A DNA stretch of 26,379 nt from a virus. Shown here piece by piece: positions 7,101 to 26,379 of this stretch. The notes below the pieces were generated by a model. It did no database searches and was not told where the DNA came from. It saw only the letters and a program-made list of their open reading frames with translations. Location of the stretch: IMG/VR virus record IMGVR_UViG_3300022602_000363, positions 1 through 26,379 of that record; one strand, given 5' to 3'. Position 1 is the first letter of the stretch; every line of letters starts with the position of its first letter. Both the position numbers and the translations under genes were made by a program.

Positions 7101-7109
7101 GGAATTTCG

Positions 7110-10100
7110 ATGGGAACCGATAGTAGACAAGGCGTAAAATTACCAGACTGGGCAGACCAGAATAAAGCCTACGGCATGAAATTCAATCCCGGCACCTATG
7201 CTGGTATTGTTAAACAAAACGTAGATCCACTACGCATGGGACGTTTGCGTGTGTGGTTACCTGACTACGGTGGCAACGAGGATGATGAAAAAAGCTGGAA
7301 ATGGGTTACCTACGCTAGCCCATTTTATGGATCTACACACAACCCTAGTAGGAACACAGACAACACAGACCAACAGTCCGAGCACACCTACGGTATGTGG
7401 TTTGTTCCACCGGACTTAGGCAACACCGTACTTTGCACATTTGTTAACGGAGACCCGGGGCGCGGATATTGGTTTGCAGTAGCCACAGACAAGCGACTGA
7501 GCCACAACATGGTTCCGGGTGTAGCAACACGCTTTGCTGACCAAGTTGATAAAATTAGTGTTGGTGGACTTGCTGAAGCTAGTTTGTCACGCACTGATCA
7601 TAAACCTTACTTGCCTTTAAGTGAGTTTAACGAAAGCAGAGAAAGCAACATCAACGGAACTTTCCTTGCTAACAAATTACCGGTACACGAATATCAAGCT
7701 GAAATTATCATCAACCAAGGTCTTGACACAGACCCTGTGCGTGGCGCAACAACATCTAGCAGTTTACGTGAGGCACCAAGTGGGGTATTTGGTATCAGTA
7801 CTCCTGGTCGCTCATCTAACCCAACTGATGTAACTCCTACTATACGCCGCGGAGGTCATAGCTTTGTCATGGACGATGGCGCAGCAGATGGTACAGATCA
7901 AGCCATTAGATTGCGTACAGCAGGTGGTCATCAACTGTTGATGAATGACAAAGAGCAGGTTCTGTATATTGCAAATGCCGCAGGAACCAGCTGGTTAGAA
8001 TTTGACAGCGGCGGCGGCATACAGATGTACAGCACTAACGGCTATTCTGTACGCACACAAGGCACACTAAACCTACATAGTGATACCACAGTTAACATTC
8101 AAGGTTCCACTATTAACATCAAAGCAGTTGCTGGTATGAAAGTTGCAACACAAACACTAGACATACGCAGCAGCGGTAACATGAGTTTGTTTGGTGCTAA
8201 AGTAGGAATTGGATCAGGTGGATCCACAAGTCTAACCAGTGGCGGCACAGTGGGCGTGGGCGCCAACGGCACATTGCTACTACACGGCGCAGCAATTAAA
8301 CTAAATGACGGCGATGTCGCACAGGTTCCAGATCCAGGAGATCTAACAAGCTACCTACACCACGACGCAAACAAAACACCAATTGGACTTTGGGAAGAAG
8401 CAGCAGGTACGCTTACTAGTATTGTTACTAAAGCGCCAACCCACGAGCCATACGATCGCGGCGCCCCTGTGGTACCGGCTTCGTCAGTATCTTTATCTGC
8501 GGTAAAGAATGTGTGTTCAGATCAAGCAGGGCCAACAACATCAGCAGGACAAGTAAGTCCAGGCGGAGCAGGGCCATTTGGCGATTACATTGCTGGCTTT
8601 GAATCTAGTAGCGTGGGGTACAATGCATTTAACCGTGGATCAAGTCCTCCTGCAGGCACAGGTAGTCCACGTGAAACAATGAACTTGGAAAACATGACCA
8701 TTGACGCAATTCTAGCAGCAATGGCCAGTTCAGACCCACGACAACGATTGTTTGCAGTGGGCCGTTACCAATGTATTCCTACTACACTAAAAGGCGCATG
8801 TTCTAAGTTAGGTATTCCTACAAGTTCTAAGTTTACTAGAGATATACAAGATAACATTTTTGTAAACTACCTATGCAAAACAAAACAACCTAAGATTGGC
8901 ACATACTTGGGCGGTAGCGATCCAAACAATGAAGCAGCATTGCTGAATGCATGTAGTGCAGCAGCGGGCGAATGGGCAAGTATCGAAGATCCGCAACTAA
9001 CACCTCCACGTGGACGTTATGACGGTCAAGGTACTAATCATGCCTACGGCAAAACAGCAGCAACTAAAGAAGCTCTTAAAGCACAGTGGAACTTCCTGCA
9101 CAAGCAAGGCGGTGGCGTTGTTACTACTGGCAGTGGTAGTGTATTAACTGACGGGTCTGGTAATCCTGTAAAAACTGGAACTAGTTCCGAATCTACAGTA
9201 GAAGCTGGTATACAAGCAGCAAGCGGTCAAAACGTAACCAAGCAAGCTCCTGCAGAGCTAATGAAACGTTCTAATACTCCAAACACCGGAGCAACAGTAT
9301 CGCCTATTGGCACATATGGTAAAGATGATTACATCGCTGGACTAGAGGCAACACAAGTATCTGCACTAATGACACAGATTGCTTTTAGCGAAAGCGATTT
9401 TGCTAGCGATTACAATGGTGGCGCACTAATTGGGCGTTATGGCGCAAATGCAGTTATGCTAGCCGAATACGGTTATATTAAACCTGACTATCTAACACGC
9501 TACAAGTCAGAAGCTATTGTCGATGCTAATGCATGGACTGGAAAAGACGGCGTATCTAGCATCAAAGACTTTTTAAATTCCACAGCAGCACAAGACTTAA
9601 TTATGGCTACATTTATACAAGATGCGTATAAAGCACTGAGCAAGTCTACCCCGGCTGGAATTAAAAATGGCGACAGTATATGTACAGTAGCAGGTATGAT
9701 CTATGTGACTTACTTGTTTAGAAGTGCAACAGCCAAGAATGTTGGGGACAATATGGATGCAATGGTTGGCGAAGCAGTTAACTGGAGAAAGAACAACAGT
9801 GGCGTAACCTTTGCAGGCAAAACACCAATTGAAGTCTACAATGAAGGACGTTATGCAATCGACGTACTAAGTGTTGCTGGACAAGCAGCTACAGAAACAT
9901 CGCCAAGTACCACAGGTATTGTACCTGAAGATGTACTGGCATTTGGTACAGGTGCAAACAATAACAGAGCTAGTTTTGATACTTGTGCTACCAGCTTCAA
10001 GAATGCATTGCTATCAGCAGCACAAGCATACAAAACAGCAAGTGGTAAGAAGATTACAGTTGCTAGTTTGTATAGAAGCCAAGCTGACCAAGAACGATTA

Positions 10101-10376
10101 TATAATCAATGGAAAGCAGCAGGCGGAGGCCCAGGTGTACCAACAGCAGGTGGCATTACAACTCCCGCACTACCAGTTAACATGGGTGGTAAACTTAACT
10201 CCCACGGTGAAGGCGTTGCTATTGACTGTGGACAACAAGCAGCAGAAGTTGCTAGAACCATTGACTTGTCTAAATTTGGACTACGTTGGGGCGGCACATT
10301 CAGTACTCCTGACCCAGTACACTTGCAGTTGGCCAGCTGGACACCGGGCGCAAAAGCACCAGCGAATAGCGACTAA
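7110..10376 (+). CDS. 5: gp5 baseplate spike with three putative cell-wall hydrolase domains
   Basis: The central spike that pierces the cell envelope. Residues about 25-140 form the gp5 OB-fold (GTYAGIVKQNVDPLRMGRLR, WFVPPDLGNTVLCTF). Residues about 250-410 show short alternating strands typical of the VgrG/gp5 triple beta-helix. Three enzyme-like domains follow. First is a lysozyme/muramidase-like domain at about 488-665, with E498 and FAVGRYQCIPTTL (549-561). Second is a transglycosylase-like domain at about 739-922, with FSESDF (E761) and IGRYGANAVML. Third is an M15-type peptidase at about 945-1080, with zinc ligands H1032 and D1039 in SHGEGVAID and H1071 in DPVHLQL. Ser/Gly/Thr-rich linkers separate them. 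T4 gp5 has 575 residues and a single lysozyme domain placed before the helix. An AAGGA site precedes the ATG. Enzyme activities are inferred from motifs only; the fold of the second domain is the least certain. Confidence 0.85.
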   Translation: MGTDSRQGVKLPDWADQNKAYGMKFNPGTYAGIVKQNVDPLRMGRLRVWLPDYGGNEDDEKSWKWVTYASPFYGSTHNPSRNTDNTDQQSEHTYGMWFVPPDLGNTVLCTFVNGDPGRGYWFAVATDKRLSHNMVPGVATRFADQVDKISVGGLAEASLSRTDHKPYLPLSEFNESRESNINGTFLANKLPVHEYQAEIIINQGLDTDPVRGATTSSSLREAPSGVFGISTPGRSSNPTDVTPTIRRGGHSFVMDDGAADGTDQAIRLRTAGGHQLLMNDKEQVLYIANAAGTSWLEFDSGGGIQMYSTNGYSVRTQGTLNLHSDTTVNIQGSTINIKAVAGMKVATQTLDIRSSGNMSLFGAKVGIGSGGSTSLTSGGTVGVGANGTLLLHGAAIKLNDGDVAQVPDPGDLTSYLHHDANKTPIGLWEEAAGTLTSIVTKAPTHEPYDRGAPVVPASSVSLSAVKNVCSDQAGPTTSAGQVSPGGAGPFGDYIAGFESSSVGYNAFNRGSSPPAGTGSPRETMNLENMTIDAILAAMASSDPRQRLFAVGRYQCIPTTLKGACSKLGIPTSSKFTRDIQDNIFVNYLCKTKQPKIGTYLGGSDPNNEAALLNACSAAAGEWASIEDPQLTPPRGRYDGQGTNHAYGKTAATKEALKAQWNFLHKQGGGVVTTGSGSVLTDGSGNPVKTGTSSESTVEAGIQAASGQNVTKQAPAELMKRSNTPNTGATVSPIGTYGKDDYIAGLEATQVSALMTQIAFSESDFASDYNGGALIGRYGANAVMLAEYGYIKPDYLTRYKSEAIVDANAWTGKDGVSSIKDFLNSTAAQDLIMATFIQDAYKALSKSTPAGIKNGDSICTVAGMIYVTYLFRSATAKNVGDNMDAMVGEAVNWRKNNSGVTFAGKTPIEVYNEGRYAIDVLSVAGQAATETSPSTTGIVPEDVLAFGTGANNNRASFDTCATSFKNALLSAAQAYKTASGKKITVASLYRSQADQERLYNQWKAAGGGPGVPTAGGITTPALPVNMGGKLNSHGEGVAIDCGQQAAEVARTIDLSKFGLRWGGTFSTPDPVHLQLASWTPGAKAPANSD

Positions 10377-10384
10377 ATACTGTT

Positions 10385-10759
10385 ATGAGTACATACCGCG
10401 GCTTTAGCACCATTAACTCCAGTAAGCGTTTTAAACTTACGGATGCTGATTTGATTAAACAAGATTTGGTTAATAACTTCAATATCCGTAAGGGCGAGAA
10501 GCTGATGCAACCAAATTTTGGTACAATCATCTGGGGTCTGTTATTTGAGCCGCTAACTGACGCATTGAAAAATGCTGTAGTTGCTGACATAACACAAATC
10601 ATTAACTATGATCCTCGTGTAAACGTCAACGATGTGCAGGTAAACGAGCAAGAACATGGCTTGCAAATCTTAATTTCGTTAACATATTCAAACACAAATC
10701 AGACTGACGCATTGTTTTTGAACTTCAACGGTAATACACAAAAGCTGACCTACGCTTAA
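10385..10759 (+). CDS. 25: gp25 baseplate wedge protein
   Basis: A 124-residue wedge protein of the gp25 family, shared by contractile tails, type VI secretion (TssE) and related injection systems. In the family it sits in the inner baseplate, touches gp6 and gp53, and starts sheath polymerisation. Family signs are FKLTDADLIKQDLVNNFNI, then RKGEKLMQPNFGTIIWGLLF, then the EPLTDALKN turn and a central DPRVNVNDVQV strand. The EP of FEP is kept, while the following residue is Leu where many relatives have another residue. The length is close to that of T4 gp25 (132). The start lies 8 bases after the gp5 stop without a clear ribosome binding site, so translation is probably coupled to gp5. A late promoter for the next gene starts 21 bases after its stop. 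Confidence 0.93.
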   Translation: MSTYRGFSTINSSKRFKLTDADLIKQDLVNNFNIRKGEKLMQPNFGTIIWGLLFEPLTDALKNAVVADITQIINYDPRVNVNDVQVNEQEHGLQILISLTYSNTNQTDALFLNFNGNTQKLTYA

Positions 10760-10780
10760 TATAAGCCGTTTTTGTACTAT

Positions 10781-10788
10781 TATAAATA
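10781..10788 (+). promoter_or_regulatory. T4-type late promoter for gp6 and the giant gene
   Basis: TATAAATACTACAATAAGG contains an exact T4 late box, 18 bases before the gp6 ATG at 10807. The leader includes TAAGG as a ribosome binding site. It lies in the only gap of any size (47 bases) in the baseplate operon and probably boosts expression of gp6 and the gene after it. Confidence 0.8.
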
Positions 10789-10806
10789 CTACAATAAGGT
10801 ACATAT

Positions 10807-13800
10807 ATGGCTTTAACCACTCGTCAAACTAGTCTTCTGATCCAGCAGGATTGGACAAAAATTTATCAGACATTCCAGTCAGCTGATTTTTCTAGCTACG
10901 ACTTCGAAACACTACGCAAGACAATGATCGATTACTTGCGTACCAACTATCCTGAAGATTTTAACGACTTCACTGACTCTAGTGAATACATTGCCCTAAT
11001 TGACCTTATTGCCTTTATGGGGCAAAGCATTGCTTTCCGTGCTGATTTGAACGCACGTGAAAACTTTATTGACACCGCACAACGCCAAGACAGCGTATTC
11101 AAACTAAGTCGTTTAGTTGGTTACAGTCCAAAACGTAATACTGGCGCCAGTGGCCTATTGAAAATTGATAATGTCAGCACCACAGAAACTATCTACGATA
11201 GTAACGGCACAGACCTAACAAACGTAGTTGTAAGCTGGAACGATAGCAGTAACGATAACTGGCAAGAACAAATGAACGCAATTTTAAATGCGACATTAGT
11301 TGATACACAAGTTATTGGTAAATCGGGCAGCTCCACTACAATCAACAACATTGCTACAGATACCTACAGTATTAGTATTGTACCTGGGCAAACACCTGTC
11401 TACAGTTTTAACGCCACAGTCGAAAACAAAACTATGGCATTTGAAGCAGTTAGTTCGTCAACAACTAACAGCACTACAATTTTTGAACCACCTCCTATCC
11501 CACGTAACATTTTTAACATCTTGTATCGTAACGATAGCTTGGGCAACAGCAGCAACAACACTGGATTCTTTATTCAGTTCAAACAAGGTACACTAAACAA
11601 GATTGATTTCAATCTAGCTGAAAGCATTCCTAACCGTACAGTTGCAGTTAACTTCAACAACATCAACAATGATGACACATGGTTGTATGGCTTAAACACA
11701 CAAGGTGCAGTATCCACAGCATGGACTAAAGTTAATGCCGTTGCTGGCGTTAACGTAACCTATAACCAAACTACAAACCGCAACATCTATCAAGTTAATA
11801 CTCGTGCTAGCGACCAAGTTGATTTAGTATTTGGTGATGGCGTATTTGCAAGTATTCCACAAGGTAACTATCGTTTCATCTATCGCCAAAGCAATGGTTT
11901 AAACTATAAAATTACCCCTAACGAAATTACAAGAATAAGCATTCCTATTGCTTATGTAAGCCGCAGCGGTCGTGTTGAAACTCTTACAGTTACAGCCAGC
12001 TTGAACTATACTGTATCTAACAGCTCAAGCTCAGAAACACTAAACTCTGTGCGCTCTAATGCACCACAAACATACTACACACAAAACCGTATGATTACTG
12101 GCGAGGATTATAACATCCTGCCATTTAGTTTGTTTAATAGTGTAGTTAAAGTAAAAGCAGCCAACCGTACTAGTTCAGGCGTAAGTCGTTTCTTGGACGT
12201 ACTAGACGTTACTGGAAAATATTCTAGTACCAACATTTTCTGCGATGACGGATATCTATATCGTGACACCAATGCTGGCGACCAATTTACATTCACTTTC
12301 CAAACAGTTGGTGATGTAAATGATATCATTGATAACGAACTACGTCCTATCCTAAGCCTGCAAAAAGTTACACATTTTAGATTGGAGAATACTCCACGCT
12401 ATCCTGTTACCAACGGAACAGGCATTGTAACTTGGAAGCATAATACTGATATTACTAATGGTAGTATTGGCAATATCATGGACAGCACAGGCAACACTCT
12501 GGTTAGCTTTGGTCCAGGACTTGCACCTACAAGCTCTAACCGTCAATACATTGAAGTTGGCGCAATGATTAAATTTACTGCGCCTGCTGGACAATATTTT
12601 ACAGCCCAGCGTGTATTGAAAACAGGCACAGCACAGTACCAAGGCGAGTCAAACTATATCTATGCTACAGTTGAATTGGTAAACGGTAACGCAGTTACAA
12701 TTAACGAACAAGTACCGACTGGCGCAATAGTTGCATACGTAGTGCCTAAGATGGCCAACGACTTTGCATTTTCATCTACCTACAGCGATGAAGCAACAAC
12801 ATCACGTTTGTCAACATTGATTCGCGGATATAACAGTTTTGGTATTCGCTACGACATTCCTACACGTACATGGAAGTTGATTACAATTTCCAATTTGGAC
12901 ACTATCAATCCGTTTAGCTTAACCTACGCAGGTGACGCCAGCGGTGGTGGATTAGACTCTAGTTGGTTGATTACAGTTATCTATAATAACGGTGTCTACA
13001 CAGTTAGCTATCGTGGCCTTAACTATGTATTTGAAAGTTTGGCAGAAACTACATTCTACTTTGACTCTAGCGTTAAAGTATATGACAGTAAGACTGCACA
13101 GACTGTACGTGACCAAATTAAAATTTTAAAAATCAATGCCGGTCCTGATTTATCAACACCACTAGGCCAAGATATCACATGGCAAATCTACAGCAACGTA
13201 GTTAGCACAGACGGATATCAAGACCCAAGTCGTGTGTTGGTTACATTCCCAGACAGTAACAACGATGGTATCCCAGACGATCCTGACTTGTTCCAAACTG
13301 TAGTAAACCCATCAATCAACTCTGCCAAGAAAGTTGTTTTCTTTACGCAGATGCCTGACCCAACCGATGGATCGTTTATTAACTTAGTTCCGGTTGACAA
13401 CAGCACAATCGTTACAGACTATACTACCAAGGCATCTATTTTATTAGTAGCCAGCAAATATAACGTGGGTACTGTATTCTATGCGTTTGCTGAAAACGTA
13501 TTCTACGAATTAACCAGCAATAGCCAAACATTACCGGCTGTGTCTGTATTAACAAATTACATTGCCTATGCTGGTCGCCAAGGCTTGAGCTTCCAATACA
13601 AGCACAACAGTCCTAACAATCGTCGTATTGACCCAAGTCCAAATAACATCATGGACTTGTACATTCTAACCAAAGAATACAGCACTGATTATGCTGCATG
13701 GTTAGCTGACACCAGCGGAACTCTAGTAGAACCAACACCGCCAACAACAGAAGAATTGTCTAGCGCATACCAAGCCCTGGACAATTACAAAGCATTGAGC

Positions 13801-14226
13801 GATACTATTGTTTATAACTCTGCGGTATTCAAACCATTGTTTGGTGCCAAAGCAGATGCAAGCCTGCAAGCTACATTTAAAGTAGTTGCTAACCCTAACA
13901 TTGTTGTTAGCGATAGCGAAATTAAGAGTGCAGTGATTGCAGCTATTAATCAATATTTTGATATTAATAACTGGGACTTTGGCGAGACATTCTACTTTAG
14001 CGAATTAAGCGCATACCTACATCAAACACTAGTACCAATGGTAGCTAGCATCATTATTGTAGCAAGCGACCCACGTATCCAATTTGGTACATTGTATCAA
14101 GTTAATGCAGAAGCAAATGAAATTATCACAAGTGCTGCAACAGTTGACAACGTAGAAGTTATTTCTGCAATCACCGCTGCTCACTTAAATCAAACAACTA
14201 CAACTAGTACACAACTAGGAATTTAA
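10807..14226 (+). CDS. 6: gp6 baseplate wedge protein, enlarged
   Basis: gp6 forms the inner iris ring that holds the baseplate wedges together and moves during contraction. The N-terminus (about 25-115) carries the usual block: YLRTNYPEDFNDFTDSSEYI, then IAFMGQSIAFRADLNARENF and LSRLVGYSPKR. The C-terminus (about 985-1139) has the matching end block: FKVVANPNI, INQYFDINNWDFGETFYFSE, and ITSAATVDNVEVISAITAAHL. T4 gp6 has 660 residues and this has 1139. The extra length lies mainly in the middle (about 480-960), made of strand-rich segments. Within it, residues 816-827 form a perfect calcium-loop pattern (DSNNDGIPDDPD), like dockerin or thrombospondin type 3 loops. The gene has its own late promoter, and the giant gene starts 2 bases after its stop. 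Confidence 0.92.
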   Translation: MALTTRQTSLLIQQDWTKIYQTFQSADFSSYDFETLRKTMIDYLRTNYPEDFNDFTDSSEYIALIDLIAFMGQSIAFRADLNARENFIDTAQRQDSVFKLSRLVGYSPKRNTGASGLLKIDNVSTTETIYDSNGTDLTNVVVSWNDSSNDNWQEQMNAILNATLVDTQVIGKSGSSTTINNIATDTYSISIVPGQTPVYSFNATVENKTMAFEAVSSSTTNSTTIFEPPPIPRNIFNILYRNDSLGNSSNNTGFFIQFKQGTLNKIDFNLAESIPNRTVAVNFNNINNDDTWLYGLNTQGAVSTAWTKVNAVAGVNVTYNQTTNRNIYQVNTRASDQVDLVFGDGVFASIPQGNYRFIYRQSNGLNYKITPNEITRISIPIAYVSRSGRVETLTVTASLNYTVSNSSSSETLNSVRSNAPQTYYTQNRMITGEDYNILPFSLFNSVVKVKAANRTSSGVSRFLDVLDVTGKYSSTNIFCDDGYLYRDTNAGDQFTFTFQTVGDVNDIIDNELRPILSLQKVTHFRLENTPRYPVTNGTGIVTWKHNTDITNGSIGNIMDSTGNTLVSFGPGLAPTSSNRQYIEVGAMIKFTAPAGQYFTAQRVLKTGTAQYQGESNYIYATVELVNGNAVTINEQVPTGAIVAYVVPKMANDFAFSSTYSDEATTSRLSTLIRGYNSFGIRYDIPTRTWKLITISNLDTINPFSLTYAGDASGGGLDSSWLITVIYNNGVYTVSYRGLNYVFESLAETTFYFDSSVKVYDSKTAQTVRDQIKILKINAGPDLSTPLGQDITWQIYSNVVSTDGYQDPSRVLVTFPDSNNDGIPDDPDLFQTVVNPSINSAKKVVFFTQMPDPTDGSFINLVPVDNSTIVTDYTTKASILLVASKYNVGTVFYAFAENVFYELTSNSQTLPAVSVLTNYIAYAGRQGLSFQYKHNSPNNRRIDPSPNNIMDLYILTKEYSTDYAAWLADTSGTLVEPTPPTTEELSSAYQALDNYKALSDTIVYNSAVFKPLFGAKADASLQATFKVVANPNIVVSDSEIKSAVIAAINQYFDINNWDFGETFYFSELSAYLHQTLVPMVASIIIVASDPRIQFGTLYQVNAEANEIITSAATVDNVEVISAITAAHLNQTTTTSTQLGI

Positions 14227-14228
14227 TA

Positions 14229-17200
14229 ATGGCCGTAACAAGTACTCTACCGTTCTTACCAACAATTTTTCAAACTGATTCTAACAAGAAGTTTTTAAAT
14301 GCAACGTTGGATCAGTTAGTTAATGACGCTGATTTAGTGAGGGTAAACGGCTACATTGGCCGTAAATTTGCACCAACATACAAAGCCGGTGACAATTACA
14401 TAACAGAGCCAGATGCAAATCGTGCAAACTATCAACTTGAACCTAGTGTTGTAGTACAAAACAAAGCAACTGACACAGTTAGTTTATTCAGCACCTATGT
14501 TGATTTACTAAATGAAATCAGTGTAGCAGGAGGTAACACCAAAGACCACAGCCGTTTGTTTAGCAACGAAAGCTACACATTCGGTGGCTTATTTGATTTT
14601 GACAAATTCAGCAACTACAACAATTACTATTGGTTGCCTGATGGCCCAGACGCAGTTGATGTGTTTTCTGGTAACATCCCTACTGAAGAAACTTTTTCAG
14701 TTGTTCGCAATACTGGCGCTGGTGGTTATAATTTCAGCGGCAGCGGTGTAAGTGCAAACCCAGTACTAACATTGGCCCGCGGCGGTACATACAAATTTAA
14801 CTTATCTCAAGCCGGTAACAAATTCTGGATCCAAACTGAACCAGGTATTAGTGGTACAATGGCTAAACAGTCAAATGTTAGCACACGTAATATCTATGGC
14901 GTACAAAACAATGGCGCAAGTTTGGGGCAGGTTATTTTTAATGTTCCAACTAGCAGCGCACAGAACGTATATGCTCAAATGCCGTTGGCTGCAACAGTTG
15001 ATTATGCAGTAACATTGCCATTCGCTAGTGTACAAAACACAATGCTAAGTGCATTGTTAAATCAATACCCTAACGTATTTGATGGCGTACAAACAAATCT
15101 AGATCGCAAGACCGTTGTGTTTATTGGCGACTTCCAAGACGATTCATACTGGGAAGCTGGCGGGGATTACGATTTAACTGGCAGCGGATTTGACAGTGAC
15201 TTATTTGATGGTGGTTCATCAATTCCTAAGGCACAACGCCCAGGACCTTGGACTATCGTACTAGTACCGATTGATGATGACTATCTAGTTACCTTCCAAC
15301 CAGCAAGCGCAGATAAACTTGTTGCAACAAGCAACAGAGTTTTTGTTACAAGCGGTGTTGAATACGGTTCTACTTCATTCTACTTAGACTACACAAGTCA
15401 ATATCAGCCAGTACCGGTTGATACTGCTAGCTTGGATCGTTTGTATTACCAAGACGGCAACAATCCAAACATGGTTGGTATTATTCAGCTTGTTGATGAA
15501 AATACAAACGTCATCAACGTTGAACAAGATATTATTGGCATTCCTAGCTACACAAGTCCAAATGGTGTTGTGTTTACCAATGGACTAAAAATACAGTTCG
15601 ATGATACTGTAAGCGATCCTGGTTACGCTAACAACACTTATTATGTCGAAGGTGTTGGCACAGGCATACAACTAGTTGAAGTTGATAAATTAATTACACC
15701 AGAGAGCTATGCTAGCAGCGGCATTGACACACAAGACTATATCACTGTTAATCGTTATAGCCTAGACGCTAATCCATGGTCACGCAGCAATCGCTGGTTC
15801 CACATTGATGTTATTAATGCCACTGCGGCCTACAACAACACAGTACCATTACCAGATCAAACAAAACGTGCCACACGTCCTATCATTGAATTTGAAAGCT
15901 GCTTGCAGTTGTTTAACTTTGGACGTCTAGCTAAAGCACCTGTTGATCAGCTTGACTACACAATTACTGATGCAATGAACCAAATTGAAAACTTGGTAAT
16001 TGGCACAAACTCCTCTGTAACTGTTAATTCTTTAACTATAGTTCCAGGACAACGTATTATATTTGCAAACGATGTGGATCCTGTTATTAGAGATCAGATC
16101 TATGTTGTAACTGCAATTGACGCCACAGGGCCAACATACCCATTGGGACACGGCACAAGCGACACAGTTATTCACTTGGTATTAGCTGATGATGCACAAG
16201 TACTTGAAGGACACAATATTACAGTTACCAGCGGCGTTAATGCAGGTAACAGCTATTGGTACGATGGTAGTGCATGGAATCTAGCACAAGCAAAAACTTC
16301 TGTTAACCAAAGCCCGTTGTTTGATGTTATTGACAGCAATGGCTACAGCATCAGCAACAACACCTATTATGAAACCAGCACATTTGCTGGTACAGCTATC
16401 TTCTCTTACAAACAAGGGACAGGTAATAATGATACAGTTCTAGGTTTCCCATTAAGCTATAGAAACTTTAACAGTATTGGCGATATTCAGTTTACCAACA
16501 ACTTTGACACAGACGTTGCAACTTACTCTAGTGGACAAACTTCTGTATCATTGCCAATTAACAACAACTTCATTAAACAAAATACCGGATACGATACTTT
16601 TGTTTATAGAAACACATGGGTTAAAAATACCGAAGTAACTAAACAGTACCAAGTATTCTCGTTTGAGTATACTGGACAGTCAAACTACTTCCCAATTGAT
16701 ATTGCACCAGAAGTTGATGCTACTATCCCTTATACCAAAGTTTATCAGAACAATAAACTGTTAAGCGGTTACACACCTGGCAGCAATGTTAAAGATGCCA
16801 ACGGTAAAACTCCCGATGACCTAGCATTTGAAGCTGGGTTACTTGACTACCAATATCACACAGTTGGTAGCCGTGCTACAGTACGTGTTAACATTAACTT
16901 GTTAACAGTTGGGGATAAGATTGATGTTTTAATCTACAGCAAAACTCCAAGTAAAACAGGCTATTACGAAATCCCTAACAACTTGGATTACAACAGCAAG
17001 AACGTTGTATTTGCTTCGTTGACGTTGGGACAATTACGTAACCACATCAAAACAATTGAAGAGAATACCAAAGTAATTTCAAGTCCTGGCGCAGCAAAAA
17101 CTGTTCCAGCACTACGTGATATTGTTTACAAAAGCAACGGCGGCACGATTGTACAGCAAAGTGCTCCAGCAATGTACAGCAATATTTTCTTAACAGATAA

Positions 17201-20200
17201 GAATCTTAATTTTATCAAGAGCTTGGAATTGTCTGCACGTGAGTACTCACGATTCAAGAACAAATTCTTAGAATTGTCTACTAAACTAGAAACAGTAGAC
17301 CCAACAAACATTCCAGCTAGTGTTGACAATATTCTAAAAAATATCAACAGTATCAAGAACAAAACGTTCCCATGGTACTACAGTGATATGGTGCCTTACG
17401 GCGATAATGCAAACATTATCACATATAATGTTATTAACCCATATCAATATCAATATGAAATCAGCCAGGTATTTAACGATACCAGCTTGAGCAACTTGTC
17501 TGTATTGGTTTACTTAAATGGCGTACAACTTGTTAATGGTGTAGATTTTTCTTTCCCACAAGACCGTTCTGCTATTATCATTAACAAGACTGCTATAACA
17601 CTGGCAGTTGGCGACACTATTTCTATCATTGAATACAACAACACAGATGGTTGTTTTGTTCCTGAAACTCCAAGCAAGTTGGGATTATATCCTAAATTTG
17701 TTCCTAGCATTTTTGTCGATGATAGTTACATTACCCCAACACAAGTTATCCGTGGACACGATGGTAGCATCATTCCAACGTTTGGCGACATTCGTGATGA
17801 TTTGTTATTGGAACTTGAAAAGCGTATCTACAACAACATTAAAATTGATTACACATCGCATCTGTTTAATGTATACGATTATGTTCCAGGTAAGTTCCGC
17901 AACACAGACTATACACTAACAGAGTTTAATCAACTGTTAAGTCGCCAATTCCTACGTTGGGTAGGCGACAATCAAGTTGACTACGCATCTAATACTGGTT
18001 TCCAAAGTAATAATCCTTGGACCTGGAACTACAAGAAATTTAAAGACCGTGTTGATGGCAGCGCACTACCGGGTAGCTGGCGTGCTATTTTCAGCTACTT
18101 CTTTGACACATACCGCCCACATACACATCCATGGGAAATGTTGGGCTTTGGCGAAATGCCAGACTGGTGGATCACACGCTACGGCGCAGCACCTTATACT
18201 GGTAGTAACCAATTGCTATGGGATGATCTAGAAGCAGGTTACATATACGCCGGCCCTCGCGCTGGTTACGATACACGTTTTGCACGTCCTGGACTAAGCA
18301 AAATTATTCCTGTAGATGACTACGGTAGTTTGTTGAGCCCTAACGAATGGGCAACAGCAACATTTGATAGTTTATCAGCAAGTGCTTCTTTTGCAGTAGG
18401 CGAACAAGGCCCTGCAGAATTTGCATGGCGCTCAAGCAGCTTGTATCCTTTTGCTATGCAGTTTGCATTGGCACTAGCTAAACCAGGCGTATACTTTGGT
18501 AGTTTGATTAACGTTGACCGTTACTACAGAAACACTCTAGTTGATCAGTTAATCAACAAAGACACTCTGCAACGTATTACATTGTCATCTGTTGTTATCA
18601 ACGGTGATACTACCAGCGGCACTACAGTTCGTAGCGCAGGTTACTTGAACTGGGTACGTGATTACTTGCTAAACAACGGCATGGATCCAGTTGCAACTAT
18701 TCAGTACTATCTAGACAATGTAAACATTCAATTGGGTTACAAGATTGGCGGATATACCGATCAGAAATTCATTGAAGTACTAGCCGAACAAGGTAGCCCA
18801 ACTAATTCACAGAATAGTATTGTTCTGCCTACTGAAAACTATAAGGTTTACTTAAACCAATCTACACCTATTCGTAAGGTTGTTTATAGTGCAGTACAAG
18901 TTGAGCAAACTGATGGCGGATACATAGTAACCGGATATAATACAAACAATCCATATTTTACAATTATCCCAAGTCGTGTAAACAATAGTTTCTATACTAT
19001 CAGCGTTCTCAAAGAACGTGCAACAATCTACAACGATTACCAAGCAGTTAAGGTAACGATTCCGTATGGTTACGAATTCTCTACACGAGAAGAAGTTGTT
19101 GACTTTTTGATTAGCTATGGACGTTATTTGGGATCACAAGGATTCCGCTTCCGTGACGTTGACCAACAGCTTGGCGACACACGTGACTGGGTACTAAGTG
19201 CAAAAGAATTCCTAAACTGGAGTCAACAAGGCTGGGCAAGTGGTAACTTTATTATCTTGAGCCCAGTTAACAACGTTCTAAACAACGTACAGCCAACTGG
19301 TGTAATTGCACCCGTTGATAATTCTCCAAGCGGTACTAAAGTCTTAGACCAAAACTTTAACTTTATCAAGAGTTCAGACTTTGTTGAAGTCAGGACCGGC
19401 AACACATTTAAACTTTCCGCAATTAACAATCAAACAATTTGTTTTGCGGACTTGAATGTTGTTCAATACGAACACGCAATTATTTTTGATAACGTCACAG
19501 TTTTCAATGACATTATCTATGTTCCAGAACTAGGCAACAGACAGTATCGTTTAAAACTAATTGGCAGCAAGACTGGTTCTTGGACTGGCGATTTTAATAT
19601 CCCTGGCTTTGTGTTCAACGACACAAAAGTAGACACATGGCAACCAGGTGTTGATTATAAAATGGGCAGCATTGTTCAATTTAAGAATCAATACTACACT
19701 TCATTGGTAGACATTGACGCAGCCAGCGACTTTGTACAAAATAAACAATGGGCTCCAATTAACAAAACTGATATCAAAACTGGCCTATTGCCTAACTTCA
19801 GTTACCTTGCTGATCGTATGCAAGATGTCTACGACGTTGATAACTTACCCGCAGACAGCACATTGGAAGGATTTGGCACAAGCCTAATTGGTTTCCGTAA
19901 ACGTGACTATTTGACTAACTTTGGTTTAGATGAAACAAGCCAAGTTAAGTTCTATCAAGGCTATATCAAAGACAAGGGTACACTAAACGCTATCACTGGT
20001 CTGACTAAAGCTCAACTTGATAACCTAACAAGTAACATTGATATCTACGAAGAATGGGGTCTGCGTGTTGGTGAGTACGGTGCGTTAAACAGCAACCAAT
20101 TCGTTGAGATTGTATTAGATGATTCTAAAATTACAGCTAACCCTGCACCAATTGAATTGTTATACAAAGACGATCTAGACAGCATCCAAGGTGTTGTGGG

Positions 20201-23200
20201 ATTCCGTCCCATTGACTTGTATAGAAGTCCAGCTGGATATGATAAGAACATTTTCTTCAATCGTACTGGGGCAAGTAATACCAACAATGATATTTTAACT
20301 GCTGGCTATGTAAACCTAAACGACGTTGATGATTCGTTGTTTGATTTTACTACCTACGCTGATCTAGACACAGTGGTTAATAACATTGGCCCAGGATATC
20401 ATATCTGGATCGCTAAAGATTTCAGCAACGACTGGAATGTCTATCGTGTAACAGAAACTAAGATTAACGTATTGTCATTGACATACACGATCGATAGTTT
20501 AATGAGTGTCGGGTTCAGTGATGTACCTAACCTATCAGTCGGCGATGTGTTTGCTATTAAAATGTTCAATGATCAATTTGATGGCTTCTATCAAGTATAC
20601 GCAATTGATGGAGTACACAGCGTTAAGGTTGTACCGCACAAGTATGCAGACATCCTTAAAAATGCCAAGACTATCGCAGGCACAGGTATCTTCTATACTT
20701 TGCAATCTGCACGTATAACAACACTGGATCAAGCAAACGCATTGGTACCATTGAATGGTTGGGCAGACGGTGATAAACTTTGGGTCGATGATGACAACAA
20801 CGGTAACTGGGGTGTCTACGAAAAAACTACTGCATGGAACTACAAAGCATCTGTATACGATGACGTAAACCAAGCAATTCCTAATAGCGGATTTGGTACA
20901 GCAGTAGCAACCAACTCAACTGGTCAAAACATGTTCGTTGGCATGCCTGCACGTAACCTAGTGAAGGTATTTGCTAAAAACAGCGCAGGATCATTGAGCC
21001 AAGTATCTGCACTACAACCGACAACTACTTCAACAGTTTCTACATTGAACTACGGTTCATCTTTGGCAGCAGCAACAACAACTGTAGCAGTTGGTGCACC
21101 AGGTAGCCTGGGCGGCAAAGGTATGGTTGCAGTACACGACATTACAACAGGATCTATACAATTTATTTGGGATGCTGACTCAAGCAGTACAACTAAATTT
21201 GGTACTAGCGTAGCCACAAGCGACGACGGCCAATGGCTATATGTTGGTGCACCTGGCGAAAACAAGATCTACATCTATAATTTCAATTCTACTATTTCAC
21301 AACACAGCGTTACAACAACTTGGTCAGGTGGATCAACACAAACTTTAACCTGGACACCAAGTAGCGTGTATCAAGTTAGAATTTCTGATGGTACTTACAA
21401 CTACGTACCGGGTGTTGACTACACATTGTCAACTAACGTGATTACATTCGTTAATGCACCTGCATTGTTGGCAACAGTTTCTTTTGTACAATCGCCATGT
21501 TATGTATACCACAGCGCAATCACTGGTAGCACATACGGTGCAGTGAGCGGTGACAACTTTGGTTATCGTCTAGCAACAAGTAAAGTTGGTAACGACCTGC
21601 TAGTTGGCGCTCCAGGCACAAACAGCAATGCTGGCGCAGTTTACTTACTGGAACGTTTCCGTCAACAGTTTATATCAAATACTGACAACGTTTATACCTG
21701 CATTGGTGCAGTAGACACATATACCAAAGTCTATGTTGGTAATACCCTACTGACACTGAATGTTGACTTTACAGTTTCTGGTGCAGGCAGCAACATTATT
21801 TCGTTTGCTATCCCATTAACACTGGGACAAATTGTTAGCGTAATTGCAACACCATTTAACTTGATCCAAGAAATCACAGAACCTGTTTCCTATCAATCAG
21901 CAGGCAACCAATTTGGTTCTGTAATTACAATGGATTGCGACAACACATCAACATTCTTTGTTGGTGCGCCAAACACACTAGTAAATGGAACACGTGGTTT
22001 AGTATATCGTTATTCTAATCCTGGTAAAATTCTAGGTACTGTGTCTTCGCCAAGCAGCACAGAATATGTTAAGAACTTGATTCTTAACGAAGGCCCAATT
22101 GGTACCTACACCGCAGGTGTATATTCTGCTGTAGCTGGTTTATATATTAACGGTACACACGTTGACTTGTCTCCAGCATTTACAACATTTGAAAATGATT
22201 CTACTAATCCAGTGACTTATGTATCTGGTTACTTGGATCCACAGACTTGTGTTAACTTGATTAACGCTGCCGCTATTCCTAACATTACAGCTAGCCTAGC
22301 TGACGGTGTATTCTTTAGCATTAGCACAAGTAGTATCAATCAAAACAGCAAGTTAGTTGTTACTAGCGATAGTTCCAACTTGTTTGAAAAATTAGATATT
22401 AACATCTACGAGTTATCTCAAGTTATTACACACCCAACTGTGACTACTAGCGCAGGCTTTGTGCAGTCAATGAAGTATGACGATTCTGTTGGAGTATTGC
22501 TTGTATCTAGTTACTTAGATCAAGTCGGATATCCGTCGCAAATCGACGAGTATACTACAACATTTGATTCTAACTCAACAATCTTTAAAGACAACTATCC
22601 TCAAGCAGGCGCAGTATATGTCTACGAAATGTTAGTTGACACCAATACAGGCTTTAACAATGTAGGCACCATGTCCTATGTCTCCTTGCTAACAAGCCCA
22701 AGCGGTGATTCAACAGATCAATTTGGTTATGCAGTTGATATCAACAACGGATTGATTGTTGTTGGCGCACCTGGCGATAATACTCTGGTTACAGGCGGCG
22801 GTACAGTACACGCTTACACAAACCCAACATTAGCTGCTAGCTGGAACTTATTCCGTTCACAAGAAGGCAAAGTTGATCTTGGCAACGTAAGTCGAATTTT
22901 TGTCTACAGCAACAAAACACAAACTATTAAATCTTACCTAGATTATATTGATCCAGTTAAAGGTAAAATTTTAGGTATTGCTGAACAAGACCTTGACTAT
23001 AAAACAGCAAATGATCCAGCTGTATACAACAATAGTACAAGCTCGACTATTGCAACCAGCCAATCATATCACTGGAACGAAAGCCAAGTTGGTAAGATTT
23101 GGTGGAACCTAAGTACTCTACGTTACGTTGATTACGAACAAGATACACTAATCTATCGCAGCAACAACTGGGGCAAACTATTTTCTGGCAGTAAAGTACA

Positions 23201-26200
23201 GGTTTGCGAATGGGTTGGTAGCAAATATCCTCCAAGCAAATATGTTGCCAGCGGTGGCGACGGTGTTCCATTGTATCCTAACGACACAGCCTATGTAACT
23301 GTGCCAGTTGTAGTCAACGGCAACGTTACTGTAATGTACTATTACTGGGTAACTGGTAAAGAAAATGCAGCCAAAGGCAAGCACAACAGCGTATCTGTTA
23401 TTGCTGACATCATTGAAAATCCACAGTTACAAGGTGTTCCTTACGCATTCCTAATGAAAACAAATGCGTTTGGTTTAGTAAATGTACAACCATATCTAAG
23501 TGGTACAGATACTATCTTGAATGTGGAGTACAACACAATAGAATCAGAAATTGGTATCCATACTGAGTATGCATTGATCAATGAAAACGATTCTAATAGT
23601 GTTATCCCTGATCGTATCTTAGAAAAACTAATTGATAGTTTGTCTGGTGTTGACAAGTTAGGTCAAGTTATCCCTGACCCAACACTAAGTGCAGCCGATC
23701 AAATTGGTATTGCAATTCGTCCACGACAAACAATGTTTGTGAACCAAGGTATTGCAATTGAAAACTTTGTAAAATATGTTAACAGCGTTTTGATACAGCA
23801 TCCTATTGTATTCCAGTACAGCTTGCTAGGACTAGAAGCACAAGATCCTATTCCGGCATCAACTGAATACGATATTACTGTAAACACAGTTGACGATTTA
23901 TCTAATATCGACACAAACCTAGTATCACCTGGATACAAAGTATTGGTATTGAGCGACAGTACCAATGCCGGTCTATGGACATTATATATACTAGACAACA
24001 ATCTACAGTTTGATACTCTGAGAGTTCAAGCCTACAACACTAACTTGTACTGGAGTAAAGTTGACTGGTACGATACCACATACGATCCAACAAGTCGTAT
24101 CAACTACACAGTAGCAGCCTACAAAGATATTGCATCATTAACATTAGTCGACGGTGACATCATTCGTGTTAACTATGACGAAAATGCACAGTTTGCAATC
24201 TATCGTGTAAACAGCGACTTGACATTGTCAAAAGTTGGTATCCAAAATGGTACAATTCAGTTAGCTGATACATTGTACAACTGGTCTACTGGACAAATGG
24301 GCTGGGACGAGGACTTGTTTGACACAATACGCTTCGACCAAACTCCAAGTACAGAAATTCGTAATATCTTAGTAGCCCTACGCAATGATATCTTCATTGA
24401 AGCACTAAGCGATCAGTTTAACAAACTGTTCTTTGTGTTGGTTAACTATGTATTACAAGAACAAAAATCAGTGGATTGGGTATTTAAAACCAGTTTCATC
24501 AGCATCTTCCACAAGTTGCGTGAATTGAGCCAACCACCTAGCTTCCAACTTGATAACCAAGACTATTACTTGGATTATATCAACGAAGTTAAACCATACC
24601 GTACGATTGTGCGTGAATATGTTGTTGATTATACAGGTAATGATTCTGCAAACAACAACGTGACTGACTTTGACTTGCCTAGCTTGTATGTTAAGAAACT
24701 AGGACAGTATCGTACACCCGACGGTAGTGCAACAATCGATTCGACTCTGTTATCTACTACAGGTGAATATCAGTATTGGAACAAGTATCACGGCTTCACA
24801 ATTGATTCTATTCAATTGAGTAACCAAGGTGGTGGATACTTATTCCTAACAGATCCTAAGAGCAATGTAATTGTTAGCCCTAGCGTAACTATTACTGGCG
24901 GAGGTGGTACAGGTGCAACAGCAGTTGTGTCTAGCTACAATGTGTTGACTGGCGCTATTACAGGTATTACTGTAACAAAGGCTGGATCAGGTTACACTAG
25001 CGCACCTAAAGTAACTATCAACGGTACTAAAGGGTCTGGCGCACTAGCTGCGGCACGTTTGTCAAACAAGACTATTCGTCAACTTGACAGCGTATTGAAA
25101 TTTGACCGTATTGCTTACGACAGTAATGTTAAAATCTGGAATAGCTCAAGTAGTTATAACGCAGGAGACGTGGTTGCTTATGCAGGATCTGCATACCTAG
25201 CATCTATTTCTATGCCAGCAGCAGAAAACTTTAACTTCAACACATTCACATTACTGACTGGTGATCAAGTCGGAAATGCAAATGATCGTATCATTGCATA
25301 TCTTGCAAGTGCAACAAAACAAAATCTTGATCTAACATCTACGCTAGGTGAAGAAATTGTTGGCACAGAAAACAACAACTACTGGTTGTCACAATACATT
25401 GGCGGAATTGATTACCCTGGCGTAAAAGTACAAGGTCTTCCATTTAATGCCAATGTGGGCGATCAACAATTGATTGATAGTATCATTCAAAGTCGTTATG
25501 TTGACACAGCATTAGGTACCCGTCCGGAAGATATTACTATCGACGGTGGCGCATACATTGACTACTACAGTAGCCATGCACCAGAAGAACTATTGCCGGG
25601 TATTATGCACGACAGTATCGACATCAGCGTGTTTACACAAGGTGTTGTAAGTTCTGGCAACTTGACTGTAGATAAAAACGGCTCGTCACTTGCATATCGT
25701 GAATTCTACGATATTCATAATAACCACAACTACTATCGTATCAGTGGTTTTAGCACAGCGTTCTTAGCAAACGACATTGATATTACAGCTAATACCATTA
25801 CATATATTGTGAACTCAACTAGTTCATTGCCAACTCCGGATATTACTAGAGCTATTCCTGGTGTTATCTTCATTGATGGCGAAATGATTACCTATTGGGA
25901 AAATGATACAGTTAATGATACATTGCGTAACATTCGCCGTGGCGTTGGTGGAACACCAATCCAACCTCACTATGCTAAAAACCCATTAACTGGACAACAA
26001 ACACCAATCTACGATGCAAGCTCTGCACAGGCTGTTCCTGATATGCAACAACGTTCTATCACTATCAGTACCAACGGTACATTTGATAGTAACAGTTCAT
26101 GGAACTATTGGAAAACTAGTACAGGCACATCAGTATTCCATACAGCAGATAACCCAACATACAAGTTATCCCTAAGTGGTAATATTGTAGCCAACATTGG

Positions 26201-26379
26201 TGATGTCATCACACAGCGTTACAGTAATGCAAATGCTGTGATTAGAGGTAACATCATCAGTGGAAATACCGCGGCGTTTGTATATAACAGTGGATTGTTT
26301 ACAACAGCCAATGCAAATTGCGTGATCTATGTAAATGGCGTGCAGTCCACATTGCACGTTAACGCAGTAAGCCAGTTGG
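14229..26379 (+). CDS. Giant baseplate or tail structural protein, open at the window edge
   Basis: The frame opens at ATG 14229, 2 bases after gp6, with AGGA 8 bases upstream. It has no stop for 4050 codons and runs off the right edge. The N-terminus (LPFLPTIFQTDSNKKFLNAT, then NGYIGRKFAPTYK) and several blocks belong to a family of very large virion proteins in aquatic T4-like phages: NPWSRSNRWFHIDVI (about 513), GLYPKFVPSIF and VIRGHDGS (about 1153-1180), YAGPRAGYDTRFARPGLSK (about 1340), SVDWVFKTSFISIFHKLREL (about 3415), LGTRPEDITIDGGAYIDYYS (about 3761) and ITYWENDTVNDTLRNIRRGV (about 3885). Inserted are a probable seven-bladed propeller (about 2220-2870), two modules like carbohydrate-binding family 5/12 (from W1804 and from W3637) and a glycine-rich repeat (about 3549-3612). 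T4 has gp7 (1032 residues) after gp6, so by position this may replace gp7 and perhaps other outer wedge proteins. The function is inferred from context. Confidence 0.85.
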   Translation, partial: MAVTSTLPFLPTIFQTDSNKKFLNATLDQLVNDADLVRVNGYIGRKFAPTYKAGDNYITEPDANRANYQLEPSVVVQNKATDTVSLFSTYVDLLNEISVAGGNTKDHSRLFSNESYTFGGLFDFDKFSNYNNYYWLPDGPDAVDVFSGNIPTEETFSVVRNTGAGGYNFSGSGVSANPVLTLARGGTYKFNLSQAGNKFWIQTEPGISGTMAKQSNVSTRNIYGVQNNGASLGQVIFNVPTSSAQNVYAQMPLAATVDYAVTLPFASVQNTMLSALLNQYPNVFDGVQTNLDRKTVVFIGDFQDDSYWEAGGDYDLTGSGFDSDLFDGGSSIPKAQRPGPWTIVLVPIDDDYLVTFQPASADKLVATSNRVFVTSGVEYGSTSFYLDYTSQYQPVPVDTASLDRLYYQDGNNPNMVGIIQLVDENTNVINVEQDIIGIPSYTSPNGVVFTNGLKIQFDDTVSDPGYANNTYYVEGVGTGIQLVEVDKLITPESYASSGIDTQDYITVNRYSLDANPWSRSNRWFHIDVINATAAYNNTVPLPDQTKRATRPIIEFESCLQLFNFGRLAKAPVDQLDYTITDAMNQIENLVIGTNSSVTVNSLTIVPGQRIIFANDVDPVIRDQIYVVTAIDATGPTYPLGHGTSDTVIHLVLADDAQVLEGHNITVTSGVNAGNSYWYDGSAWNLAQAKTSVNQSPLFDVIDSNGYSISNNTYYETSTFAGTAIFSYKQGTGNNDTVLGFPLSYRNFNSIGDIQFTNNFDTDVATYSSGQTSVSLPINNNFIKQNTGYDTFVYRNTWVKNTEVTKQYQVFSFEYTGQSNYFPIDIAPEVDATIPYTKVYQNNKLLSGYTPGSNVKDANGKTPDDLAFEAGLLDYQYHTVGSRATVRVNINLLTVGDKIDVLIYSKTPSKTGYYEIPNNLDYNSKNVVFASLTLGQLRNHIKTIEENTKVISSPGAAKTVPALRDIVYKSNGGTIVQQSAPAMYSNIFLTDKNLNFIKSLELSAREYSRFKNKFLELSTKLETVDPTNIPASVDNILKNINSIKNKTFPWYYSDMVPYGDNANIITYNVINPYQYQYEISQVFNDTSLSNLSVLVYLNGVQLVNGVDFSFPQDRSAIIINKTAITLAVGDTISIIEYNNTDGCFVPETPSKLGLYPKFVPSIFVDDSYITPTQVIRGHDGSIIPTFGDIRDDLLLELEKRIYNNIKIDYTSHLFNVYDYVPGKFRNTDYTLTEFNQLLSRQFLRWVGDNQVDYASNTGFQSNNPWTWNYKKFKDRVDGSALPGSWRAIFSYFFDTYRPHTHPWEMLGFGEMPDWWITRYGAAPYTGSNQLLWDDLEAGYIYAGPRAGYDTRFARPGLSKIIPVDDYGSLLSPNEWATATFDSLSASASFAVGEQGPAEFAWRSSSLYPFAMQFALALAKPGVYFGSLINVDRYYRNTLVDQLINKDTLQRITLSSVVINGDTTSGTTVRSAGYLNWVRDYLLNNGMDPVATIQYYLDNVNIQLGYKIGGYTDQKFIEVLAEQGSPTNSQNSIVLPTENYKVYLNQSTPIRKVVYSAVQVEQTDGGYIVTGYNTNNPYFTIIPSRVNNSFYTISVLKERATIYNDYQAVKVTIPYGYEFSTREEVVDFLISYGRYLGSQGFRFRDVDQQLGDTRDWVLSAKEFLNWSQQGWASGNFIILSPVNNVLNNVQPTGVIAPVDNSPSGTKVLDQNFNFIKSSDFVEVRTGNTFKLSAINNQTICFADLNVVQYEHAIIFDNVTVFNDIIYVPELGNRQYRLKLIGSKTGSWTGDFNIPGFVFNDTKVDTWQPGVDYKMGSIVQFKNQYYTSLVDIDAASDFVQNKQWAPINKTDIKTGLLPNFSYLADRMQDVYDVDNLPADSTLEGFGTSLIGFRKRDYLTNFGLDETSQVKFYQGYIKDKGTLNAITGLTKAQLDNLTSNIDIYEEWGLRVGEYGALNSNQFVEIVLDDSKITANPAPIELLYKDDLDSIQGVVGFRPIDLYRSPAGYDKNIFFNRTGASNTNNDILTAGYVNLNDVDDSLFDFTTYADLDTVVNNIGPGYHIWIAKDFSNDWNVYRVTETKINVLSLTYTIDSLMSVGFSDVPNLSVGDVFAIKMFNDQFDGFYQVYAIDGVHSVKVVPHKYADILKNAKTIAGTGIFYTLQSARITTLDQANALVPLNGWADGDKLWVDDDNNGNWGVYEKTTAWNYKASVYDDVNQAIPNSGFGTAVATNSTGQNMFVGMPARNLVKVFAKNSAGSLSQVSALQPTTTSTVSTLNYGSSLAAATTTVAVGAPGSLGGKGMVAVHDITTGSIQFIWDADSSSTTKFGTSVATSDDGQWLYVGAPGENKIYIYNFNSTISQHSVTTTWSGGSTQTLTWTPSSVYQVRISDGTYNYVPGVDYTLSTNVITFVNAPALLATVSFVQSPCYVYHSAITGSTYGAVSGDNFGYRLATSKVGNDLLVGAPGTNSNAGAVYLLERFRQQFISNTDNVYTCIGAVDTYTKVYVGNTLLTLNVDFTVSGAGSNIISFAIPLTLGQIVSVIATPFNLIQEITEPVSYQSAGNQFGSVITMDCDNTSTFFVGAPNTLVNGTRGLVYRYSNPGKILGTVSSPSSTEYVKNLILNEGPIGTYTAGVYSAVAGLYINGTHVDLSPAFTTFENDSTNPVTYVSGYLDPQTCVNLINAAAIPNITASLADGVFFSISTSSINQNSKLVVTSDSSNLFEKLDINIYELSQVITHPTVTTSAGFVQSMKYDDSVGVLLVSSYLDQVGYPSQIDEYTTTFDSNSTIFKDNYPQAGAVYVYEMLVDTNTGFNNVGTMSYVSLLTSPSGDSTDQFGYAVDINNGLIVVGAPGDNTLVTGGGTVHAYTNPTLAASWNLFRSQEGKVDLGNVSRIFVYSNKTQTIKSYLDYIDPVKGKILGIAEQDLDYKTANDPAVYNNSTSSTIATSQSYHWNESQVGKIWWNLSTLRYVDYEQDTLIYRSNNWGKLFSGSKVQVCEWVGSKYPPSKYVASGGDGVPLYPNDTAYVTVPVVVNGNVTVMYYYWVTGKENAAKGKHNSVSVIADIIENPQLQGVPYAFLMKTNAFGLVNVQPYLSGTDTILNVEYNTIESEIGIHTEYALINENDSNSVIPDRILEKLIDSLSGVDKLGQVIPDPTLSAADQIGIAIRPRQTMFVNQGIAIENFVKYVNSVLIQHPIVFQYSLLGLEAQDPIPASTEYDITVNTVDDLSNIDTNLVSPGYKVLVLSDSTNAGLWTLYILDNNLQFDTLRVQAYNTNLYWSKVDWYDTTYDPTSRINYTVAAYKDIASLTLVDGDIIRVNYDENAQFAIYRVNSDLTLSKVGIQNGTIQLADTLYNWSTGQMGWDEDLFDTIRFDQTPSTEIRNILVALRNDIFIEALSDQFNKLFFVLVNYVLQEQKSVDWVFKTSFISIFHKLRELSQPPSFQLDNQDYYLDYINEVKPYRTIVREYVVDYTGNDSANNNVTDFDLPSLYVKKLGQYRTPDGSATIDSTLLSTTGEYQYWNKYHGFTIDSIQLSNQGGGYLFLTDPKSNVIVSPSVTITGGGGTGATAVVSSYNVLTGAITGITVTKAGSGYTSAPKVTINGTKGSGALAAARLSNKTIRQLDSVLKFDRIAYDSNVKIWNSSSSYNAGDVVAYAGSAYLASISMPAAENFNFNTFTLLTGDQVGNANDRIIAYLASATKQNLDLTSTLGEEIVGTENNNYWLSQYIGGIDYPGVKVQGLPFNANVGDQQLIDSIIQSRYVDTALGTRPEDITIDGGAYIDYYSSHAPEELLPGIMHDSIDISVFTQGVVSSGNLTVDKNGSSLAYREFYDIHNNHNYYRISGFSTAFLANDIDITANTITYIVNSTSSLPTPDITRAIPGVIFIDGEMITYWENDTVNDTLRNIRRGVGGTPIQPHYAKNPLTGQQTPIYDASSAQAVPDMQQRSITISTNGTFDSNSSWNYWKTSTGTSVFHTADNPTYKLSLSGNIVANIGDVITQRYSNANAVIRGNIISGNTAAFVYNSGLFTTANANCVIYVNGVQSTLHVNAVSQL
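20892..22830 (+). other. Probable seven-bladed FG-GAP (integrin-alpha-like) beta-propeller inside the giant protein
   Basis: Seven units follow the pattern FG.S.A......LLVGAPG......G.VYVY. Their first residues are F2222 (FGTAVAT), Y2275 (YGSSLAA), F2324 (FGTSVATSDDGQWLYVGAPG), F2444 (FGYRLAT, LLVGAPGTN), F2562 (FGSVITM, FFVGAPN), F2744 (degenerate: GFVQSMK, LLVSSYL, AGAVYVYE) and F2832 (FGYAVDI, LIVVGAPGDN). Spacings of 49 to 182 residues fit about 50-residue blades with insertions in some loops. The motif pattern is plain in the translation; the closed seven-bladed fold is an inference. Confidence 0.75.
21366..21848 (+). repeat. Two related beta-modules inserted between propeller blades
   Basis: After blade 3 (residues about 2380-2421) comes YQVRISDGTYNYVPGVDYTL followed by NVITFVNAPA and VSFVQ. 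After blade 4 (about 2498-2540) comes TKVYVGNTLLTLNVDFTVSG followed by NIISFAIPLTLGQIVSVIA. Both follow V.V.....L...VDYT.S...I.F..P...G..VSV. A third relative lies far upstream at about 1090-1138 (VYLNGVQLVNGVDFSF, VGDTISIIEY). The repeats are diverged at protein level only. Confidence 0.55.
24870..25065 (+). repeat. Glycine-rich tail-protein repeat, about one and a half copies
   Basis: Residues about 3548-3612 read SPSVTITGGGGTGATAVV, then a turn TGAITGITVTKAGSGYTSAP, then KVTINGTKGSGALAAA. The unit [GxGYxxxPxVTIxGxxGxGAxAxA] is widespread in phage tail and fibre proteins, where it forms repeated beta turns. Function here is unknown. Confidence 0.6.

Follow-up and report, generated by a model that had tools for sequence, protein, structure and literature searches.

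Beta-propellers have been described on phages in several settings. The phi11 RBP (Gp45), which contains a five-bladed propeller, and PhiKZ gp131C, located at the baseplate periphery, have shown or proposed roles in host recognition (PMC4901313). A further precedent for a phage propeller is gp213 of Sinorhizobium phage AP-J-162, an integrin-like "hemagglutinin" (PMC11242549). Integrin-like propellers are also present in Atu_ph07 (A0A2L0UZX4, "hemagglutinin") and S-TIM5 (H6WG31); like gp213, these are separate proteins of ~375-410 aa, and the two baseplate propellers, too, are separate proteins. To our knowledge, the propellers of PhiKZ gp131C and phi11 Gp45 do not consist of FG-GAP repeats. Propellers on phages, and FG-GAP propellers as separate phage proteins, are therefore already known.

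Another set of described relatives comprises giant proteins of the phrog_10938 family, such as 121Q gene 582, PA5oct gp355 and Atu_ph07 gp180. The protein analyzed here shares with these giants the position after gp6 as well as homologous N-terminal, core and downstream segments; unlike them, it contains a propeller, with seven blades as opposed to the five of phi11, embedded in the giant itself. We found no report in the open-licence literature of an FG-GAP propeller embedded in a baseplate wedge-associated giant, and it is this arrangement that we consider new.

The window, that is, the entire 26,379-base IMG/VR record, encodes on its plus strand a small baseplate wedge subunit (3891-4193; phrog_7145), a gp5-like hub protein (hub lysozyme) with an OB domain and an endolysin-like C terminus (7110-10376), a gp25-like baseplate wedge protein (10385-10759; PF04965, E 1.1e-12) and a gp6-like baseplate wedge protein (10807-14226; phrog_10646, E 3e-291; phrog_219). 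The giant is encoded directly 3' of gp25 and gp6, in agreement with the earlier note, which had placed the propeller in a giant virion-type protein next to gp6. The hub protein consists of 1088 aa, with the endolysin-like domain (phrog_2649) at residues 951-1081. At the other end of the window, a homing-endonuclease-like ORF (49-738, minus strand; phrog_314) adjoins an SbcD-like gene (770-1786, minus) and a late sigma factor gene (1831-2754, minus).

The ORF of the giant (14229-26379, plus strand) is open for 4050 codons, through 26378, and runs off the end of the window, so that the protein has at least 4050 aa; given that the full-length giants of close relatives have about 4090-4520 aa, roughly the last 100 residues lie beyond the window. 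It belongs to phrog_10938, a family of giant virion structural proteins (1084 bits, E 0), with homology in the core and flanks, and is about 25-35% identical to the cultured relatives in most segments. In tblastn searches, the conserved core (residues 1100-1990, 17526-20198) matched 87 phage records and the downstream part 84, all at less than 60% identity, and the propeller segment matched none. The flank matches are mostly to jumbo phages of Escherichia, Pseudomonas, Klebsiella, Salmonella, Erwinia and rhizobia, including PA5oct, 121Q and Atu_ph07. The record of the PA5oct homologue is annotated ESI-MS/MS, which by homology makes the giant of the window a predicted virion protein. Identity with T4 gp7 was considered and rejected at the sequence level: hhalign comparison of nine segments of the giant with five gp7 sequences gave probabilities below 1%, and the agreement is limited to gene position after gp6. 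Profile searches yielded no solved relative of the core, and a Foldseek search with the core model (pTM only 0.52) produced nothing better than E 0.05, the best matches including short CBM-like and baseplate pieces. The assignment to the baseplate wedge thus rests on gene order and homologues.

The propeller occupies residues ~2202-2871 (20832-22841, plus strand), as delineated by Pfam, AlphaFold2 (AF2), Foldseek and the alignment of relatives. All seven repeat units lie where the earlier note had located them, from the FG of blade 1 at residue 2222 (nucleotide 20892) to the end of blade 7 at about 22830-22841. Four of the seven carry an exact VGAPG, two carry near-matches (VGMPA and VGAPN) and one is degenerate (VSSYL). 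Of the Pfam profiles proposed as a check, FG-GAP_2 (PF14312) scored 56.4 bits on the propeller segment (E 3.5e-15) and 43.7 bits on the whole giant, against a cut-off of 23, and matched all 14 aligned relatives; the classical FG-GAP profile (PF01839) stayed below its cut-off (19.4 and 16.6 bits vs 22.1). A blade HMM had no matches in shuffled giants. The family profile of the propeller matches integrin alpha-4 (E 1.9e-6). Calcium binding, which the earlier note had associated with such propellers, did not hold up: between their FG and GAP, integrin-type blades have a loop with the strict motif D-x-[DN]-x-[DN]-G-x-x-D, and even the relaxed form, D-x-[DNS]-x-[DNS]-G, is not matched in the slot of 11 giants.

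Structure prediction bears out the proposed seven-bladed, integrin-like fold. The AF2 model of residues 2178-2900, built with 14 related sequences, has a mean pLDDT of 79.7 and a pTM of 0.84, and its strand list gives seven blades of four strands each, 28 strands altogether, plus an additional strand upstream of blade 1 (residues 2204-2209, 20838-20855; model strand 27-32). This is the candidate closing (Velcro) strand: judging from strand order and the fold match, the ring would close between blade 7 and the strand preceding blade 1. In a Foldseek search against solved structures, the 28 best matches are all integrin alpha headpieces (best E 2.8e-9), with a TM-score of at most 0.60 when normalized to alphaIIb. 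Among predicted viral proteins, a protein from an uncultured phage ranks first (E 1.3e-29); next come giant-virus FG-GAP proteins and the propellers that Atu_ph07 and S-TIM5 encode as separate proteins. With the integrin alpha propellers (alphaIIb, alpha4, alphaV), its best fold and profile matches, the window propeller shares seven blades and FG...GAP repeats; it differs from them in being only about 10-15% identical, in lacking the calcium motif, in carrying extra domains in c-d loops and in being embedded in a phage protein.

The blades are delineated by the repeat listing and the AF2 model, and the inserted domains by the alignment and the model. Blade 1 (FGTAV...VGMPA; 20892-21014) lacks the alanine of GAP, and blade 2 (YGSSL...VGAPG; 21045-21167) has YG at residue 2274 and VGAPG at 2288. 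The next three blades are each split between strands c and d. In blade 3, strands a-c (FGTSV...VGAPG, FG 2324, VGAPG 2339; 21198-21293) are separated from strand d (21498-21524) by a small all-beta domain of about 70 residues (21294-21497) with a weak, sub-cutoff match to CBM_X2 (E 0.017). In blade 4, a small all-beta domain of about 50 residues (21675-21830) lies between strands a-c (FGYRL...VGAPG, FG 2444, VGAPG 2459; 21558-21674) and strand d (21831-21878), and in blade 5, an alpha/beta domain of about 130 residues (22023-22409) lies between strands a-c (FGSVI...VGAPN, FG 2562, VGAPN 2578; 21912-22022) and strand d (22410-22430). None of the three inserted domains matched a Pfam family above the cut-off, and a resemblance of the blade 5 insert to flagellin-IN, seen by eye, found no support. 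Because the same type of loop carries the insert in three consecutive blades, propeller topology places all three extra domains on the same face.

Blade 6 (22452-22691; F(V) 2742) has a long b-c loop that is modeled with low confidence and a degenerate GAP site at residue 2759, and blade 7 (FGYAV...VGAPG, FG 2832, VGAPG 2845; 22722-22841) is regular. The earlier note was right about the degeneracy of blade 6, where VSSYL replaces VGAPG; its suggestion that this marks the ring closure is contradicted by the strand order and by the close relatives, in which the site is also degenerate (LLVSS, LLITSN, LLVTSD). Some more distant relatives retain VGSP or VGTP, and from these sequences the degeneracy looks like clade-specific drift.

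The sequence on either side of the propeller forms the two arms of a beta-hairpin. The first arm (KLWVDDDNNGNWGVYEKTT, residues ~2183-2201; 20775-20831) was identified from the alignment and the AF2 model, and the second (WNLFRSQEGK; 22842-22871), where the conserved frame resumes, from the alignment; across the slot, the window reads NWGVYEKTT-propeller-SWNLFRSQEGKVDLGNV. In relatives that lack the propeller, the sequence itself shows the empty site, as NRWAVYYFNSGKWNLDYKEQDVIDCNLM in SCTP-2, NDWAVAVVSGSTITNIRSRQNLVDSKLF in PA5oct and AGWAVYASGNYTTPARKEGPLVDSELF in L124; in these three and in L127, a W[AG]V hairpin continues uninterrupted into the conserved downstream segment. The propeller thus takes the place of a beta-hairpin turn, and since the two ends of a closed ring lie side by side, such a ring can be inserted there without disturbing the frame.

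In the full-length alignment, the slot spans 660 aa in the window and 650-793 aa in close relatives. Among the propeller-free giants, those of 121Q, XaC1, PA5oct and Vibrio phage 2.275 have 63-113 aa at this position, SCTP-2 has ~300 aa, and Phosso and Atu_ph07 have ~1050 aa made up of other repeats. Among 138 giants scanned with the blade HMM, 102 have at least two blades, five have one and 31 have none; all matches fall in the interval between the core and the downstream anchor, with none elsewhere in any of the 138 proteins. Ten long slots without blade matches contain no FG-GAP by Pfam either, and a LamG domain suggested by eye in the slot of SCTP-2 has no Pfam match. Unrelated sequence of about 200 to 1500 aa is accommodated in the slot, which makes a tight interface at this site unlikely.

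On a tree built from the core only (117 rows, 879 columns; unrooted, with the sample chosen by similarity, and with single-blade-match giants assigned to the propeller side), the presence or absence of the propeller requires one change, on a branch with an SH-aLRT of 100, compared to about 25 changes with shuffled labels. Together with the alignment and the slot scan, the tree shows the propeller to be present in some relatives and absent from others, with the flanks conserved. The propeller-free side includes all named cultured relatives (PA5oct, 121Q, XaC1, Vibrio 2.275, SCTP-2 and Phosso) as well as L141, the Atu_ph07 genome in IMG/VR. An unrooted tree of a similarity-chosen sample is compatible with either gain or loss; one gain is the natural reading because the propeller-free slots are either short or filled with unrelated sequence, and the propeller was probably acquired by a single insertion event.

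A scan with the propeller alignment identified 364 viral contigs encoding relatives, the best 80 of which were retrieved. Contigs of 354 and 289 kb are among them, which identifies at least some of the carriers as jumbo phages, and the carriers apparently form a large group of uncultured jumbo phages. A single scan of prokaryote genome contigs, limited by its search patterns, confirmed no bacterial relative that could be the source of the propeller, plasmids gave no match, and psbA, a possible hint of a cyanophage host, was absent from 12 contigs.

The propeller and the frame differ in their rates of divergence. Between the window and the relatives L016-L030, identity is 70-73% in the core and 62-68% in the downstream part; it drops to 46-53% in the blade cores and to 36-43% in the loops and extra domains. 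In round figures, the propeller retains about 49% identity and the frame 71%. At the sequence level, then, the propeller is diverging faster than the frame. This pattern is consistent with an exposed, changing surface; relaxed constraint can also produce it.

Taking these observations together, we consider it somewhat probable that the window comes from an uncultured T4-like jumbo phage whose giant is a wedge-associated virion protein, with an inserted and inherited propeller serving as a surface-displayed adhesion module on the baseplate. Under this scenario, an FG-GAP_2 propeller would have been inserted into the beta-hairpin turn in the lineage of the giant and inherited thereafter, without detected loss. 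The wheel would be displayed as a platform from the baseplate wedge, where it may contact a glycan or protein on the host surface, with specificity set by the variable loops and the extra domains, and the baseplate would supply several copies. If so, the family illustrates how splicing a ring-shaped domain into a hairpin turn can equip the baseplate protein of a jumbo phage with a surface domain, and one clean character marks a large, apparently uncultured phage clade. A bolder version, in which the clade is defined by one insertion of an integrin-type propeller in the wedge, the receptor-binding surface belongs to the baseplate frame and not to a detachable fibre, and ligand binding could couple directly to baseplate triggering, appears rather unlikely to us. 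More generally, the embedded propeller opens to testing whether the wedge, rather than fibres, can carry the host-recognition function, and the cultured propeller-free relatives 121Q and PA5oct offer a natural comparison.

The main rival to adhesion is a structural role: the propeller could serve as a platform that never touches the host, either as a docking site for a tail fibre or a further baseplate protein or as a brace between adjacent wedges. Beta-propellers are common protein-protein scaffolds, and in relatives, virion-structural and tail-fibre families are represented among the genes 3' of the giant, a context that we count in favour of adhesion as well. All propeller-side rows of the tree keep the propeller, and this unbroken retention, with no loss detected among 89 rows of the similarity-chosen tree, would be expected of a structural component no less than of an adhesin. 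The absence of a match to the integrin calcium motif also tells against adhesion. What tells against a docking platform is the existence of propeller-free relatives with conserved flanks, including the cultured PA5oct and 121Q, along with the variable length of the slot and the divergence above that of the frame, although a coevolving fibre could also account for the latter two. We regard this alternative as possible and clearly less probable than adhesion.

Less probable again, and in our view unlikely, is weak general stickiness toward exopolysaccharide, mucus or particles, dispensable for infection, as in some decoration proteins. The CBM5/12-like modules in the same giant protein, the several unrelated fillers of the same slot and the FG-GAP propellers that Phosso carries as separate, repeated modules are all compatible with such a role, whereas a dispensable part would be expected to be lost at times, contrary to its persistence across the sampled rows. 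The last possibility, that no propeller forms and that a low-complexity virion protein has simply produced a repeat pattern by chance or degeneration, as blade 6 and the imperfect GAP of blade 1 might suggest, is hardly credible given the profile, the predicted structure, the fold search and the shuffled control.

Several additional observations concern the relatives and the remainder of the giant. After the giant, the closest relative (L031; 14609-19021) encodes a tail-fibre-like protein that weakly matches Peptidase_G2, then a phrog_11259 protein and a member of the subtilase family (PF00082, E 2.1e-14); such an enzyme is unusual in a tail gene cluster. The giant of another relative, L068 (IMGVR_UViG_3300010885_037795; 430-17589), has 5720 aa and is the largest of the set. 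Sinorhizobium phage Phosso (L004, PV764938.1) has 42 FG-GAP_2 matches outside its giant, at 48386-68852 and 92370-93980, most of them in two very long open frames (3702 and 3182 aa) and the remainder in two of about 400-430 aa; a jumbo phage thus provides a second FG-GAP array, of far greater size. Finally, at 24900-25200 of the window, residues ~3560-3600 of the giant contain a GGGGTGA...AGSGYTSAP repeat that, by eye, resembles the slot-filling modules of Phosso and Atu_ph07, and a CBM5/12-like module adjoins it at residues 3637-3657; repeat and CBM module types may be moving around within the giant family.
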